From Mesonia mobilis DSM 19841 (GTDB lineage Bacteria > Bacteroidota > Bacteroidia > Flavobacteriales > Flavobacteriaceae): a DNA stretch of 64,000 nt. Below the pieces are notes generated by a model. It was not told the DNA's origin. It did not search any database and worked only from the letters and a program-made list of their open reading frames with translations. Position 1 is the first letter of the stretch. Every line of letters starts with the position of its first letter. Of the stretch, positions 14,548 to 19,125 are shown piece by piece. The DNA lies in the NCBI RefSeq assembly GCF_000423405.1, contig NZ_AUHX01000006.1:186001-250000 (forward strand), read 5' to 3'. A program made the translations under genes and the position numbers.

Positions 14548-15969
14548 TTGATGAAAAAATTACTACTTTCTCTATTTTCAATTTTATATACTGCAATTTT
14601 TTTCGCGCAAGTTCCTTGTGAGAATGGTTTTGCCGGCGATTACCCTTGTAACGATTATGATTTAATGAGTCATATTAGTCTTGCAACCTTAGGAGCTTCT
14701 GCCGGAAATGATTCTTGGGGTTGGACCGATCCTGCCGACGGAAAAGAATACGCCATTATGGGTGTAGATAATGGAACTTGTTTTATCGATATTTCAGATC
14801 CGGTAAATCCTGTATATTTAGGTAAGTTACCTACACATACCAATCCTAGTGCTTGGCGAGACATAAAAGTTTATCAAAATTATGCGTTTGTGGTGAGTGA
14901 AGCATCCGGTCACGGAATGCAAGTGTTCGATCTCACAAAACTAAGAAACGTTACCAACGCTCCGGCTACTTTTTCAGCCGACGCGCATTATGGTGGTTTT
15001 GGTAATTGCCATAATATTGTGATTAATCCCGATCAGGGTTTTGCTTATGCGGTAGGAACTTCGTTAAATAATGGAGGTCCGCATATGGTAGATATTCAGA
15101 ATCCTTTAAATCCGGTATTTGCCGGCGCTTACGACGCGAGTTTTTATACACACGATGCACAAGTAGTTACTTATAATGGTCCCGATACCGATTATACAGG
15201 CGATCAGATTTTGATAGGAAGTAATGAAGACGAAGTGGTTGTTGTGAATGTTACGAATAAGAGTAATCCTGTACTTATTTCAACAGTGAGTTATAGCAAC
15301 ATTGGTTATACGCATCAAGGTTGGTTTACAGAAGATCAAGCTTACTTTTTATTGGGCGATGAGTTAGATGAAATCAATTTTGGCTTTAATAGTAAAACTG
15401 TTGTTTTCGACTTTACAGATTTAGATAATCCTTCGGTAGCTTTCGACTTTTTTGGTCAAACCACAGCGATCGATCATAATGGTTATGTGAAAAATGATGA
15501 TTTTTTTGTAGCTGAATATACCGCAGGAATGCGTGTGATCGATGTAAGCGATATCGAGAATTCAAACATTTTTGAAACTTCTTATTTCGACACGTATCCT
15601 AATAGTGATGCAGTGAGTTTTAGCGGCGCTTGGAGTGTTTATCCTTATTTTGATAGTGAAAATATTGTGATTAGTGATATTGATAGCGGTTTCTTTTTAG
15701 TAAGAGAAAGCGGAACTTTAGCAACAGAAGATCACGAATTTTCAGCGAGCGTAAAACTCTATCCGAATCCGACTCATTCTATTTTGAATGTTGAAATTGA
15801 ACAAGGCGAATTAACGCAGGTTGAATTTTTCGATGTGATGGGTAAAAAAGTACTTCAAGCTTCTTTAGATGAATTGTCTAGCGGTCAAATCAATATATCC
15901 AACCTTTCTTCTGGTGTATATCTTGCACGTATTAACAACAAAATCTCAAAAAAAGTAATTATTGAATAG
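14548..15969 (+). CDS. Choice-of-anchor-B family protein with T9SS type A sorting domain
   Basis: This 473-residue protein has a signal peptide (about residues 1-21, ending FFAQ). The body has LVIVD-type beta-propeller units (for example GVDNGTCFIDISDPVNPVYLG, then VYQNYAFVVSEASGHGMQVFD). Residues from about 402 (VKLYPNPTHSILNVEIE to ARINNKISKKVIIE) form a classic C-terminal T9SS type A sorting domain. The protein should therefore be secreted or cell-surface attached. It heads an operon whose later members look like an MbnP/MbnH pair, and choice-of-anchor-B proteins commonly accompany such genes. Ligand or activity is unknown. Confidence 0.85.
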   Translation: MMKKLLLSLFSILYTAIFFAQVPCENGFAGDYPCNDYDLMSHISLATLGASAGNDSWGWTDPADGKEYAIMGVDNGTCFIDISDPVNPVYLGKLPTHTNPSAWRDIKVYQNYAFVVSEASGHGMQVFDLTKLRNVTNAPATFSADAHYGGFGNCHNIVINPDQGFAYAVGTSLNNGGPHMVDIQNPLNPVFAGAYDASFYTHDAQVVTYNGPDTDYTGDQILIGSNEDEVVVVNVTNKSNPVLISTVSYSNIGYTHQGWFTEDQAYFLLGDELDEINFGFNSKTVVFDFTDLDNPSVAFDFFGQTTAIDHNGYVKNDDFFVAEYTAGMRVIDVSDIENSNIFETSYFDTYPNSDAVSFSGAWSVYPYFDSENIVISDIDSGFFLVRESGTLATEDHEFSASVKLYPNPTHSILNVEIEQGELTQVEFFDVMGKKVLQASLDELSSGQINISNLSSGVYLARINNKISKKVIIE

Positions 15970-17320
15970 GTTGAAGTTGTTAAAACTACATAGCATTTTA
16001 CTGCTTTTAATTTTCGCGGTAAGTTGTGCTGATGACGAAACTTCAGCAGAAGATTTTCCGCCTGAAGAACAAATGTTTCAAGGAGAATTTGAATTTGCTA
16101 AAACCTTTGGCGGAAGTCAAGACGAAGAAGCGATTTCAGTCACAAAAACAAATGATGGCGGTTTTGCTGTTTTAGGTTTTACCCAAAGTACCGATGGCGA
16201 TGTAGTTGGTAAAACGGCTACCGATAGCGATTATTGGTTGCTCAAGTTTGATGGGCAAGCCAATTTGCAGTGGAGTAAAGTTTATGGTGGTACGGGCGAC
16301 GATCGCGGTCAAAAAATTATCACTACTAACGATGGCGGTTTTGCGGTAATTGGTTACAGTCGTAGCGACGATGGTGATGTTACTAATGCGCAAGGTTTTT
16401 ACGATTATTGGATGTTGAAGTTAAATAATACCGGCGACCTGCAATGGCAAAAATCTTTCGGTTTTCCCGGTAGCGATCGCGGTTATGCTATTGTGCAAAC
16501 CACCGATGGCGGCTATTTTTTAAGTGGTTATTTAGATGTAACTGCAAGTGAAGGTCAAGGTAACGACAGAAGCGCCGGCGTACTTCACGGCGTGGGAGAA
16601 TTTTGGGGAGTTAAACTCGATGCTGAAGGAAATAAAGAATGGCGACGCTATTTTGGTGGCACTAATAACGATCGCAGTTACGATGCAGTTCAGGCGGAAG
16701 ATGACGGTTTTATTATGGTAGGAAATTCAGAAAGTGATGATTACGATATTACCGATCCTCGTGGAAGTTACGATTTTTGGGTCGTAAAAACCAATGCTGA
16801 AGGCGAATTGCAATGGCAAAAAAACTTTGGCGGTTCATCGATCGATATTGCTTACGGGATCACTAAAACCCTTGATGGTAATTATGTAGTGACCGGAGAC
16901 ATTAGAAGTAACGACGGAGATGTTTCTCAAATTCACGGCAATGCCGATGTTTGGGTGATCAAGATCGATGATTTAGGAAATTTACTGTGGAAGCAAAATC
17001 TAGGTGGTGCTAATTTTGATTCTTCAAATAAAGTCTTGCAACTAGAAAATGAAGATCTCCTAATTACCGGAAGCAGCCGAAGCAACGATATCGATCTTAC
17101 CGAAAATTACGGCGACAGCGATGGCTGGTTAATGATGATCGATAAAAACGGGAATTTACAATGGCAACAAAGTATTGGCGGTAGTGATTTTGATGTGTTG
17201 AGTGAAAGTATTCAGTTAGATGATAAGAGCATTATTTCTGTTGGAAATACAGAAAGTGCCGATGGTTTAGTGGAAGATAACAAAGGAAATAAAGATATTT
17301 TAATCGTAAAGATTCGATAA
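15962..17320 (+). CDS. Lipoprotein with seven propeller-like repeats
   Basis: This 452-residue protein has a lipobox (LLLIFAVSC, C22). From residue 45 there are seven repeats of about 58 residues, each with a W.K.FGG/D.....V..T.DGG....G...S.DGDV pattern and ending in W.{4}D..G.L. Seven copies suggest a seven-bladed beta-propeller. Only TTG starts exist (15962, 15971, 15977). I give the longest, which overlaps the previous gene by 8 bp. The TTG at 15971, one base after the previous stop, is equally plausible and points to translational coupling. It probably sits at the outer membrane as a binding or scaffold protein. Confidence 0.82.
   Translation: MNRLKLLKLHSILLLLIFAVSCADDETSAEDFPPEEQMFQGEFEFAKTFGGSQDEEAISVTKTNDGGFAVLGFTQSTDGDVVGKTATDSDYWLLKFDGQANLQWSKVYGGTGDDRGQKIITTNDGGFAVIGYSRSDDGDVTNAQGFYDYWMLKLNNTGDLQWQKSFGFPGSDRGYAIVQTTDGGYFLSGYLDVTASEGQGNDRSAGVLHGVGEFWGVKLDAEGNKEWRRYFGGTNNDRSYDAVQAEDDGFIMVGNSESDDYDITDPRGSYDFWVVKTNAEGELQWQKNFGGSSIDIAYGITKTLDGNYVVTGDIRSNDGDVSQIHGNADVWVIKIDDLGNLLWKQNLGGANFDSSNKVLQLENEDLLITGSSRSNDIDLTENYGDSDGWLMMIDKNGNLQWQQSIGGSDFDVLSESIQLDDKSIISVGNTESADGLVEDNKGNKDILIVKIR
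16094..17317 (+). repeat. Seven in-frame coding repeats (propeller blades)
   Basis: There are seven units of roughly 175 nt. The recurring codon pattern includes gatggcggtttt (as in 16154-16165 and 16331-16342) and caatggcaaaaa-type W-Q-K blade starts. They are diverged, so this is an old protein-level repeat. Confidence 0.75.
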
Positions 17321-18069
17321 TGAAAAAGTGGTGGTTGTTATTTGTGGTGTTAGGTTTTGTGGGTTGTTCAGAAGATTCAGATGATCAGGCTTCTTCGCAA
17401 GAATTTACAGAAGTTACGCTTCAATTTCAAAATCAGATTGAAGGAGAAAATGTGGTGTTGAATTCAGAAACCTACGTGAATTCAGAAGAAACTTATGAGA
17501 TCGAAACCCTTCGTTACATTATTAGTAATATCGTTTTGATCGCTGAAAACGGAGAAGAGTTCGCGTATCCGCAAGCAGAAAGTTATTTTGTGGTGAATGA
17601 AGAAAATGAAGCCAGCAAAAGCATCATCTTAGAAAACATTCCTATCCAGAATTATGAAGCTATTCGCTTTGGTTTGGGTGTCGATCAATCAAATTATCCG
17701 CTCAACGGAGTGAATAATTTTGTGCCAACTGCTGAAGAAAATAATATGTTGTGGAGCTGGTCTGCCGGCTATATATTCTTGCATTTTGAAGGAAATTATA
17801 CTTCAGCAACCGAAAACGATCACCTGTTTGCCTATCATATCGGTAGTCACGGGCAAGCTTTAGATAATTATAAAGAAGTGACTTTAGATTTTCAAAATAC
17901 ATTGGCCCTAGATAGTTCAAATTCAATAGCAATCACATCAGATGTTTCAAAAATATTTGAAGCTGAATTTTCATTGTCTTTAGAGGAAATTGATGATATT
18001 CAGGTAGATCCCGAATATTCACCGCAAGTAATGGCTAATTTTTCACAAAGTTTTTCAACCCAACAATAG
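17320..18069 (+). CDS. MbnP-like copper-binding lipoprotein
   Basis: This 249-residue protein has a lipobox (LGFVGC, C16). The body matches the MbnP family pattern: EIETLRYIISNIVLI near 61-75, the tryptophan motif MLWSWSAGYIFLHFEG at 143-158 (W145, W147), and HIGSHG at 173-178. In the characterised methanotroph system the partner di-haem enzyme oxidises a tryptophan of MbnP to kynurenine, and the product binds copper. This protein is followed 6 bp later by such an enzyme, so a similar modification is a reasonable inference. Its start codon overlaps the preceding stop by one base. Confidence 0.8.
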   Translation: MKKWWLLFVVLGFVGCSEDSDDQASSQEFTEVTLQFQNQIEGENVVLNSETYVNSEETYEIETLRYIISNIVLIAENGEEFAYPQAESYFVVNEENEASKSIILENIPIQNYEAIRFGLGVDQSNYPLNGVNNFVPTAEENNMLWSWSAGYIFLHFEGNYTSATENDHLFAYHIGSHGQALDNYKEVTLDFQNTLALDSSNSIAITSDVSKIFEAEFSLSLEEIDDIQVDPEYSPQVMANFSQSFSTQQ

Positions 18070-18075
18070 TTTTAA

Positions 18076-19125
18076 ATGCGATTAAGTTTTTTTCTACTTT
18101 TAAGTTTGTTTCTAGTGAGCTGTTCTGAAGAAGATGTAAACAGCGGTTACGAAGCTATTGTAGAAAACGACACGCTAAGTATTGAAATTCCCGACTATTT
18201 CCCGGAAGTTACCTATAATTTTGAAGCCAACCCACCCACCGAAAAGGGATTTGAGTTGGGTAAAAAGCTGTTCTATGATGGTAAATTATCTTCCGACGGA
18301 GTGGTTTCTTGTGGTTTTTGTCATATTCAAGATTTTTCATTCACTCATCATACACATATTGTAAGTCACGGCGTAAACGGAGCTTTAGGAACCAGAAATG
18401 CGCAGCCTTTACAAAATATGATTTTTATGAATGAATTTACATGGGACGGCGCAGCAGAAAGTCTCGATGCACAACCTATAATTCCGATCACGGCTGAGGT
18501 GGAGATGAACGAGAGTTTTTCAAACATTATCGATAAACTTCAGGCAGATGAAGAATATCCGCAACTATTTGCAGAAGCTTTTGAGAATGGCGAGGTGAAT
18601 ACCGATAATATGTTGAAAGCGATTTCTCAGTTTTTAGTAATGATGGTTTCTGCCGATTCTAAATACGATAAAATTCTTAAAAACGAGGGCTCGCAATTCA
18701 CTGCTGAAGAGGAAGCCGGAAAAGTTTTATTCGATCAAAAATGTGCCACTTGTCACGCGGGAGTTTTGTTTACCGACCAAAGTTGCCGCAATAATGGTTT
18801 ACCTATTGACCCTGAATATGATGATGAAGGGAGAAGTCGGGTTACCGGTTTGCAAGCTGATAAGTATAAATTTAAAGTACCGAGTTTAAGAAATATTCAG
18901 ATCACCTATCCGTATATGCACGATGGTCGTTTTCAAACCTTAGCGCAAGTCTTAGATCATTACGATAGCGGGATGGTCGTTACAGAAAATTTAGATCCCG
19001 TTTTTCAGCAAAATGAAAATTTAGGCATTTCACTTACTGAAGATGAAAAACAAAAAATCATCGCCTTTTTAGAAACCTTAACCGACGATAATTTTTTGTT
19101 AGACGATCGCTTTGCTGAGTTTTAG
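18076..19125 (+). CDS. Di-haem cytochrome c peroxidase, MbnH/MauG-like lipoprotein
   Basis: This 349-residue protein has a lipobox (FLVSC, C16). It has two haem c motifs, C79-GF-C82-H83 and C223-AT-C226-H227, and the conserved YPYMHDGRFQTLAQVLDHY segment near residue 280. This is the architecture of bacterial di-haem peroxidases and MauG/MbnH. Since it directly follows an MbnP-like gene, it is more likely to modify that partner than to be a generic peroxide scavenger. Cell location is the periplasmic side of a membrane. It is the last gene of the operon, and no strong terminator is seen after it. Confidence 0.85.
   Translation: MRLSFFLLLSLFLVSCSEEDVNSGYEAIVENDTLSIEIPDYFPEVTYNFEANPPTEKGFELGKKLFYDGKLSSDGVVSCGFCHIQDFSFTHHTHIVSHGVNGALGTRNAQPLQNMIFMNEFTWDGAAESLDAQPIIPITAEVEMNESFSNIIDKLQADEEYPQLFAEAFENGEVNTDNMLKAISQFLVMMVSADSKYDKILKNEGSQFTAEEEAGKVLFDQKCATCHAGVLFTDQSCRNNGLPIDPEYDDEGRSRVTGLQADKYKFKVPSLRNIQITYPYMHDGRFQTLAQVLDHYDSGMVVTENLDPVFQQNENLGISLTEDEKQKIIAFLETLTDDNFLLDDRFAEF

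Follow-up and report, generated by a model that had tools for sequence, protein, structure and literature searches.

A predicted modular envelope operon with an MbnP/MbnH-like gene pair in Mesonia mobilis

The four-gene locus and its products

The stretch of DNA analyzed here (the window; 64,000 nucleotides, positions 186,001 to 250,000 of contig NZ_AUHX01000006.1 of Mesonia mobilis DSM 19841) carries four tightly packed genes on its forward strand. These genes, designated A, B, P, and H, encode a choice-of-anchor-B protein with a type IX secretion system (T9SS) sorting tail, a repeat lipoprotein, an MbnP-like lipoprotein, and a diheme lipoprotein, respectively (Table 1). A and B overlap by 8 bp, B and P overlap by 1 bp, and P and H are separated by a gap of 6 bp. 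A preliminary description of this DNA, made from the sequence alone, had listed the same genes with the same junctions, and the open reading frame coordinates agree with it. Its account of the products stands as well: the choice-of-anchor-B assignment and T9SS tail of A, the W..FGG...DGG repeats of B, the MbnP-like character of P with W145, W147, and an HIGSH motif (H173 to H177), and the two CxxCH heme motifs of H (residues 79 to 83 and 223 to 227) are all borne out. The open reading frame of A opens with TTG at 14548; the next codon, ATG at 14551, is the likelier start.

Table 1. Features of the A-B-P-H locus, with coordinates in the window; counts given for H refer to 108 family loci with a P gene
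Feature	Coordinates	Strand	Description
Gene A	14548..15969	+	Secreted choice-of-anchor-B beta-propeller, T9SS type A tail; residue numbers counted from 14548
Four-His span of A	15010..15477	+	H155 15010-15012, H202 15151-15153, H256 15313-15315, H310 15475-15477
T9SS sorting tail of A, residues 404-472	15757..15963	+	PF18962 (Por_Secre_tail) E 1e-14; TIGR04183 E 2e-12
Gene B	15962..17320	+	W..FGG...DGG repeat lipoprotein; open reading frame and alignment of 15
Gene P	17320..18069	+	MbnP-fold lipoprotein; PF20243 E 3.2e-45; model vs 7l6g Z 16.9
Copper-site motif M143-L-W145-S-W147 of P	17746..17760	+	Predicted; invariant in 34/34 class I P; aligned with GMAWNW of 7l6g
H173-I-G-S-H177 of P	17836..17850	+	H173 is a predicted copper ligand; aligned with VHVGST of 7l6g
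Gene H	18076..19125	+	Diheme lipoprotein, MauG/MbnH branch of bacterial cytochrome c peroxidases; PF03150, TIGR04039, 6e1c
First CxxCH of H (C79-H83)	18310..18324	+	107/108
W123 of H	18442..18444	+	Inter-heme Trp position; Trp in 107/108
Second CxxCH of H (C223-H227)	18742..18756	+	108/108
Y296 of H	18961..18963	+	Tyr 99/108, Phe 5, Leu 4; aligned with Tyr of 6e1c

Protein P matches the MbnP superfamily of Pfam (PF20243) with 154.8 bits, over the gathering cut-off of 27. Queried with P by itself, the PDB gives no match up to an E value of 1, and the profile of 34 P relatives has a weak sequence match to the MbnP entry 7l6g (E = 0.038), so that the link between P and 7l6g is made mainly by fold comparison. 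The AlphaFold2 model of P, built from these relatives, has a predicted local distance difference test (pLDDT) score of 87.5. Foldseek searches with this model return six matches below 0.001, all of them chains of MbnP 7l6g, and VIA-align aligns it with crystal MbnP over 209 residues at 3.3 Å, the runner-up entry having a Z score of 5.0.

The same profile alignment places both the M143-L-W145-S-W147 segment and the H173-x-G-S segment of P on motifs of 7l6g (Table 1). M143, W145, W147, and H173 are all kept in the 34 class I P proteins (see below for the classes), so the Trp motif is retained in close orthologs. H173 is kept in all 108 P proteins of the family, and residue 177 is His in 20 and Val in 14 members of class I. 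A 2021 study in PNAS of kynurenine-dependent copper binding by MbnP reportedly describes conversion of the first Trp of a WxW motif to kynurenine and a Cu(I) site made up of one His, one Met, and solvent; we take the Met, Trp, and His positions of P to have the same roles. Judged by these alignments, M143 is probably the conserved candidate for the Met ligand of P, and W145 is the predicted kynurenine residue. P and H share their fold, and probably their chemistry, with MbnP and MbnH.

Protein H matches the CCP_MauG family (PF03150) with 174.9 bits (E = 2.1e-51). Among the NCBIfam models, it scores 238 bits with MbnH, 175 bits with MauG, and 20 bits with the peroxidase NF040606, the first two being under their own cut-offs. 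The positions of its two CxxCH motifs, Y296, and W123 match features of MbnH, W123 having presumably the inter-heme role of the corresponding Trp in MauG. Y296 meets a Tyr of the "Di-heme enzyme" 6e1c, which we take to be MbnH, whereas 4aal, presumably Geobacter MacA, has a gap at this position and a Met just after it. The phmmer match between H and MauG (3l4m) ends at residue 298 of H and residue 296 of MauG; if its end is ungapped, Y296 falls on what we take to be Tyr294 of MauG. By these alignments, H is an enzyme of the MauG/MbnH kind, with two c-type hemes and probably the Tyr ligation of MauG.

Protein A matches the choice-of-anchor-B family (TIGR04312) with 570.4 bits (cut-off 100). Its AlphaFold2 model (pLDDT 90.6) aligns with seven-bladed propellers. 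According to the DSSP assignment for this model, strands 156 to 160, 201 to 208, 255 to 260, and 309 to 315 begin at or beside H155, H202, H256, and H310, respectively. We interpret them as inner strands, one from each of blades 3 to 6, so that four successive blades each carry a His at the same position. These residues are kept in 121, 121, 122, and 122, respectively, of the 122 A proteins of the family and in 34 of 34 each in a second set. All four are also found in 20 of 20 choice-of-anchor-B domains from outside the family (507 down to 196 bits), which were picked among the matches listed from other families of the phylum. In the family, 117 of the 122 A proteins also have a fifth His, H122, which the four most distant ones lack. 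We read A as a probable metal-binding propeller in which the four His residues of successive blades stand at the channel mouth. The literature searched (titles and abstract openings, with subscription papers thinly covered) reports no metal site in choice-of-anchor-B proteins.

By a length test, rather than by a T9SS profile, 53 of the 122 A proteins extend at least 60 residues past the propeller; 38 others end with it and show a lipobox pattern. Because some A proteins are long-tailed and others end after the propeller with a lipobox, the anchor of A seems to change while its export is kept. Four loci (L054, L059, L080, and L083) carry four or five tandem copies of A, and three of the four mix long-tailed and tail-less versions.

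Protein B is probably a propeller too. In NCBIfam it scores best with the Leptospira LipL53 SBBP family NF047494 (56.3 bits, under the cut-off of 400), and its closest named relative, from Mesonia sp. UWMA-0090, shows 96% identity in the best segment. A pattern search detects a lipobox in 97 of the 108 P, 71 of the 108 H, and 49 of the 66 B proteins; the six positions after the Cys contain a mean of 2.8, 2.0, and 1.9 acidic residues, respectively. Acidic residues behind the lipobox resemble the lipoprotein export signal of Bacteroidota. Because their lipoboxes are followed by such residues, P, H, and B are likely to be exposed on the outer face of the outer membrane.

Between 11076 and 23752, the window carries an aspartokinase-like gene (assigned by eye) and a divergent thiL-type gene ahead of A-B-P-H, which is followed by sufA, sufB, a small lipoprotein-like gene, sufC, and sufD. 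A relative of the small lipoprotein-like gene in another locus, L083, weakly matches NlpE_C. The preliminary description had noted the lack of methanobactin genes nearby; in agreement with this, no MbnB-family (PF05114) gene was found in the genome of the window organism.

Modular synteny of A-B and P-H

The distribution of these genes was analyzed in 199 genomes of the family of the window organism, Flavobacteriaceae. A PF20243 gene is found in 99 of them, and 108 P loci were examined (two partial P matches of genome G124 lie outside this set). H is adjacent to or near P in all 108 loci. The A-B-P-H order is found in 66 of them, with one to five copies of A (tandem copies in 22 loci) and, in L035, with H 4 kb off. 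A is always upstream of P on the same strand, the B-P gap never exceeds 54 bp, and the P-H gap has a median of 5 bp. In the other 42 loci, P-H is found without B.

Full-length B is encoded in 99 genomes, all of which also encode A; their adjacency was taken from fetched loci or listed coordinates, except in G065, where the position of A is not listed. P lies behind B in 67 of these genomes, i.e., in the 66 A-B-P-H loci and in G124, where A, B, and the end of a P gene stand in a row up to the contig end and H is not seen. Three more carry P-H elsewhere, and 29 have no detectable MbnP-family gene (17 of these were viewed locus by locus). Over the 199 genomes, B and P are found together in 70, one without the other in 29 and 29, and neither in 71, an association that in part reflects the operon itself.

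The seat of the operon is conserved along with it. In the fetched stretches of the 66 A-B-P-H loci, the divergent thiL-type gene is found in 60 and sufA and sufB in 64 each. Among 20 extra loci around A, 18 contain A-B without P or H (L148 and L153, with A but no B, are not counted, and L138 was not used), and the thiL-type gene accompanies 17 of the 18; sufA and sufB likewise accompany 17. The 80 named loci comprise 62 A-B-P-H, 16 A-B (one of which, L254, ends 88 bases after B and is uninformative on P-H), one A-B-P cut by the contig end, and one A-B-H. They show class I P in Mesonia, Aquimarina, Psychroflexus, Dokdonia, Gilvibacter, and Kordia; class II P in Aequorivita and Luteirhabdus; and A-B alone in Muricauda/Allomuricauda and Eudoraea. 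Among the matches listed for a 247-genome sample of the phylum, A is found next to P only in G000, G125, and G283, all from the same family as the window organism, and never outside it.

Since A-B occurs without P and P-H occurs without B, A-B is no simple accessory of P-H; it is maintained at the thiL-suf seat as a pair in its own right. The synteny that the preliminary description had put forward thus holds as a conserved four-gene order and breaks down as a fixed unit, the two pairs being separable. Its suggestion of a docking or delivery role for A and B within a P-H system fares worse as a general rule: their separability argues against it, with 29 of the 99 A+B genomes having no detectable MbnP-family gene, as do the many Met-less P proteins described below. 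The separate occurrence of either pair and the conserved thiL-type/suf seat had not been seen in that description.

The P-H-only loci have neighborhoods of their own. In 26 of 27 class I loci of this type, the pair lies between a C-x-GKC-type protein of about 125 residues upstream and an outer-membrane-like protein of about 330 residues downstream (e.g., L117:6826-10161). The latter has a Cys-rich N-terminal part (CDLCGC or similar), and the scanned representatives of both have no Pfam or NCBIfam match. The nine H proteins without Tyr at position 296 come from exactly the nine P-H-only loci with a TonB receptor neighbor (L040 to L043, L045, L047, L049, L050, and L052); these loci also encode a further lipoprotein. 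In the one such locus that was scanned, the only NCBIfam match of the receptor is TonB-copper (TIGR01778; 94 bits, cut-off 472), and the lipoprotein shows a weak YtkA-like match.

Two classes of P occupy the slot behind B. They were first split by profile score and then checked by residues and by tree. Class II P is found in 59 of the 66 A-B-P-H loci, forms a single clade (support 100/99), and has no Met at position 143. Of these 59 proteins, 53 keep W145 (Phe in the other 6), 11 keep W147, and 48 have lost it. A GGGYH motif is invariant in the 51 class II P proteins aligned (e.g., L055:8914-9678). The H partners of class II P keep Y296, all variants at this position being confined to P-H-only loci. 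As 59 of the 66 operons contain a Met-less P, A-B cannot depend on a Met/kynurenine copper site. The other seven loci, including the window, have the full M-W-W-H set, and their P and H proteins nest with P-H-only pairs in both trees.

In contrast to P and H, the B proteins of class I A-B-P-H loci nest among those of class II operons (27-row tree with 20 class II rows). In a quick tree of SufB, SufC, and SufD, with 29 of 77 forks open and 4 of 84 loci without SufB omitted, the six class I A-B-P-H rows force five changes; they are hardly clustered, shuffled labels giving a value as low in 58 of 500 trials. Because the P and H proteins of the window nest in class I but its B protein nests among class II operons, the simplest reading is that the P-H cassette has been exchanged, with some co-transfer of B, and that P and H travel together. 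We infer the direction of the gains and losses.

Proposed mechanism and alternatives

The preferred reading, to which we assign a probability of about 0.6, is that of a modular envelope operon in which P-H is an MbnP/MbnH-type pair and A-B is kept independently. It is based on the gene order, the family assignments, the predicted fold of P, the conserved residues, and the conflicts between trees; the TonB receptor next to P-H in nine loci also counts in its favor. In the proposed mechanism, H would oxidize W145, the first Trp of the M-x-W-x-W motif of P, to kynurenine. The modified P would then bind one Cu(I) via H173 and probably M143, with the kynurenine close by. P, H, and B would reside on the outer face, where the T9SS would export A, and the A-B operon would have gained, lost, and exchanged the P-H cassette. 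Uptake, storage, and supply of A are candidate uses for the copper of P; its delivery from P to A is speculative, and any metal in A is a prediction.

Several observations weigh against this reading. The score of P with the MbnP equivalog model TIGR04052 is 49.6 bits (cut-off 140), its sole Cys is Cys16 of the lipobox, and the four-Cys motif that appears in the molecule name of 7l6g is absent. H stays under the cut-off of the MbnH model TIGR04039 (238 versus 362.85 bits), and its best PDB match by E value is the cytochrome c551 peroxidase 4aal (3.4e-44), followed by 6e1c (1.2e-40). The prevalent P of the A-B-P-H loci is the Met-less class II. The P, B, and Suf trees contain long branches and open forks, and in one named locus, from an Aequorivita metagenome-assembled genome (L239), no P is detected between B and H. 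The genome of the window organism has no TonB-copper receptor over the cut-off (best score, 34 bits). In addition, P and NosZ are not associated over the 199 genomes (39 with both, 60 with P only, 50 with NosZ only, and 50 with neither; Fisher p = 0.15, with a negative trend; the 89 NosZ genomes include 86 over the cut-off and 3 with long partial matches). NosZ has no match in the genome of the window organism, and the idea that P-H feeds NosZ was dropped. As regards the equivalog models, P has no further Cys and misses the cut-off, which places it in the MbnP superfamily outside TIGR04052, in a separate subfamily. Profile searches thus uphold the earlier MbnP/MbnH-like assignment of the pair for P as PF20243 and for H as CCP_MauG, and do not uphold it for TIGR04052 and TIGR04039. 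The MbnP fold, the MauG/MbnH-type enzyme, and the copper-site residues kept in close relatives speak for that assignment.

The strongest alternative is that A-B and P-H share an operon for expression and export only, P-H being a free-standing copper scavenger or store with no physical link to A-B, and A-B a surface pair with a different function. The 29 A+B genomes without a detectable MbnP-family gene, the 42 loci with P-H but not B, and the C-x-GKC and outer-membrane-like neighbors of 26 of the 27 class I P-H-only pairs are all consistent with this arrangement, which has a substantial chance of being correct, if somewhat short of an even one. It sits less well with the fact that two P-H lineages fill exactly the slot behind B, with the short B-P gap in all 66 loci, and with the association of B and P over genomes, even though the latter stems in part from the operon itself.

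Alternatively, P-H might mature or metallate A, with copper passing from P to the four-His center and A being an enzyme of the cell surface that uses copper or iron. In favor of such a role are its four-His ring and its position upstream of P, with tandem copies of A in a third of the operons. However, A keeps its four His in operons without P-H and outside the family, so that A does not generally require P-H, and this explanation appears unlikely. It is even less plausible that H is an ordinary diheme peroxidase clearing envelope peroxide, with P as a structural or electron-donor partner and no kynurenine, since the better E value of 4aal than of 6e1c is offset by the alignment of Y296 with the Tyr of 6e1c, by MbnH and MauG scores that, though below their cut-offs, are far over that of NF040606, and by the invariant M-W-W-H residues of class I P.

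Beyond the preferred reading, choice-of-anchor-B proteins might represent unrecognized four-His surface metalloproteins of Bacteroidota. In Flavobacteriaceae, exchangeable kynurenine-copper P-H cassettes would repeatedly have assumed the supply of their metal. One type of cassette, that of the window, would have a Met-His-kynurenine site; in the other, Met would be replaced, perhaps by the new His of GGGYH, to form a site with two His as in MopE and CorA. We regard this generalization as rather doubtful.

Kynurenine copper sites are known from methanotrophs. The finding of an MbnP-family gene in half of the sampled family genomes, often in a fixed slot, allows lineages with and without the copper-site Met to be compared side by side and makes the role of MbnP/MbnH outside methanotrophs testable, e.g., in Aquimarina, Dokdonia, and Psychroflexus. 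The four-His ring provides a concrete lead on the choice-of-anchor-B family and is the most interesting lead of this analysis.

Comparison with known systems

The literature searched, again as titles and abstract openings, contains no description of an A-B-P-H operon; in one Flavobacteri-related match, the name MBNP refers to a dinoflagellate protein. At the superfamily level, the MbnP/MbnH reading is correct; the operon itself represents a modular variant not described in that literature.

Protein A resembles the four-His iron propellers and the Sphingobium TCM1 phosphotriesterase (5hrm) in being a seven-bladed propeller with a metal center, which in A is predicted. Of the 50 matches listed for the model of A, 5hrm gives the longest alignment (331 residues, Z = 30.5) and the highest identity (16%). 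However, this fold is common to many families, many unrelated propellers tie at Z scores of 30 to 31, and the profile match is not significant (E = 0.058). In that match, H155 falls on a His of 5hrm that we take to be a metal ligand. A close relationship with the phosphotriesterase was dropped as a claim and kept as a lead. Four His residues hold iron in the propeller of stilbene/carotenoid oxygenases, as stated in the accessible text of PMC6097328; no carotenoid oxygenases are found among the 50 matches listed for A, which does not argue against a relationship with them.

Like P-H, the MbnP/MbnH pairs outside methanobactin operons (GenProp0940) are stand-alone and sometimes lie near TonB receptors, according to the accessible part of PMC3621798. 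That part names no propeller genes for them, whereas P-H is found here in a thiL-A-B-suf neighborhood.

MopE/SACCP of Methylococcus and CorA/CorB of Methylomicrobium each combine a surface kynurenine copper protein with the gene of a diheme partner (accessible text of PMC3912023 and PMC3621798) and are therefore precedents for the proposed P-H mechanism. The copper site of MopE and CorA consists of two His, kynurenine, and water; in P of the window, M143 and H173 would take the place of the two His. CorB is mostly periplasmic and SACCP is on the surface (PMC3912023), and MbnP is not markedly similar in sequence to MopE or CorA (PMC3621798), as far as the accessible text of these papers goes.

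The closest comparison is with MbnP/MbnH of Methylosinus trichosporium (7l6g and presumably 6e1c). P and H differ from that pair in having lipoboxes on both proteins, in the absence of the four Cys, and in scoring below both equivalog cut-offs; no MbnB-family gene was found in the genome, and they are joined to A-B. They resemble it in the predicted fold of P, in the M-x-W-x-W and HxGS motifs, in the diheme partner with its aligned Tyr, and in the adjacency of the two genes.

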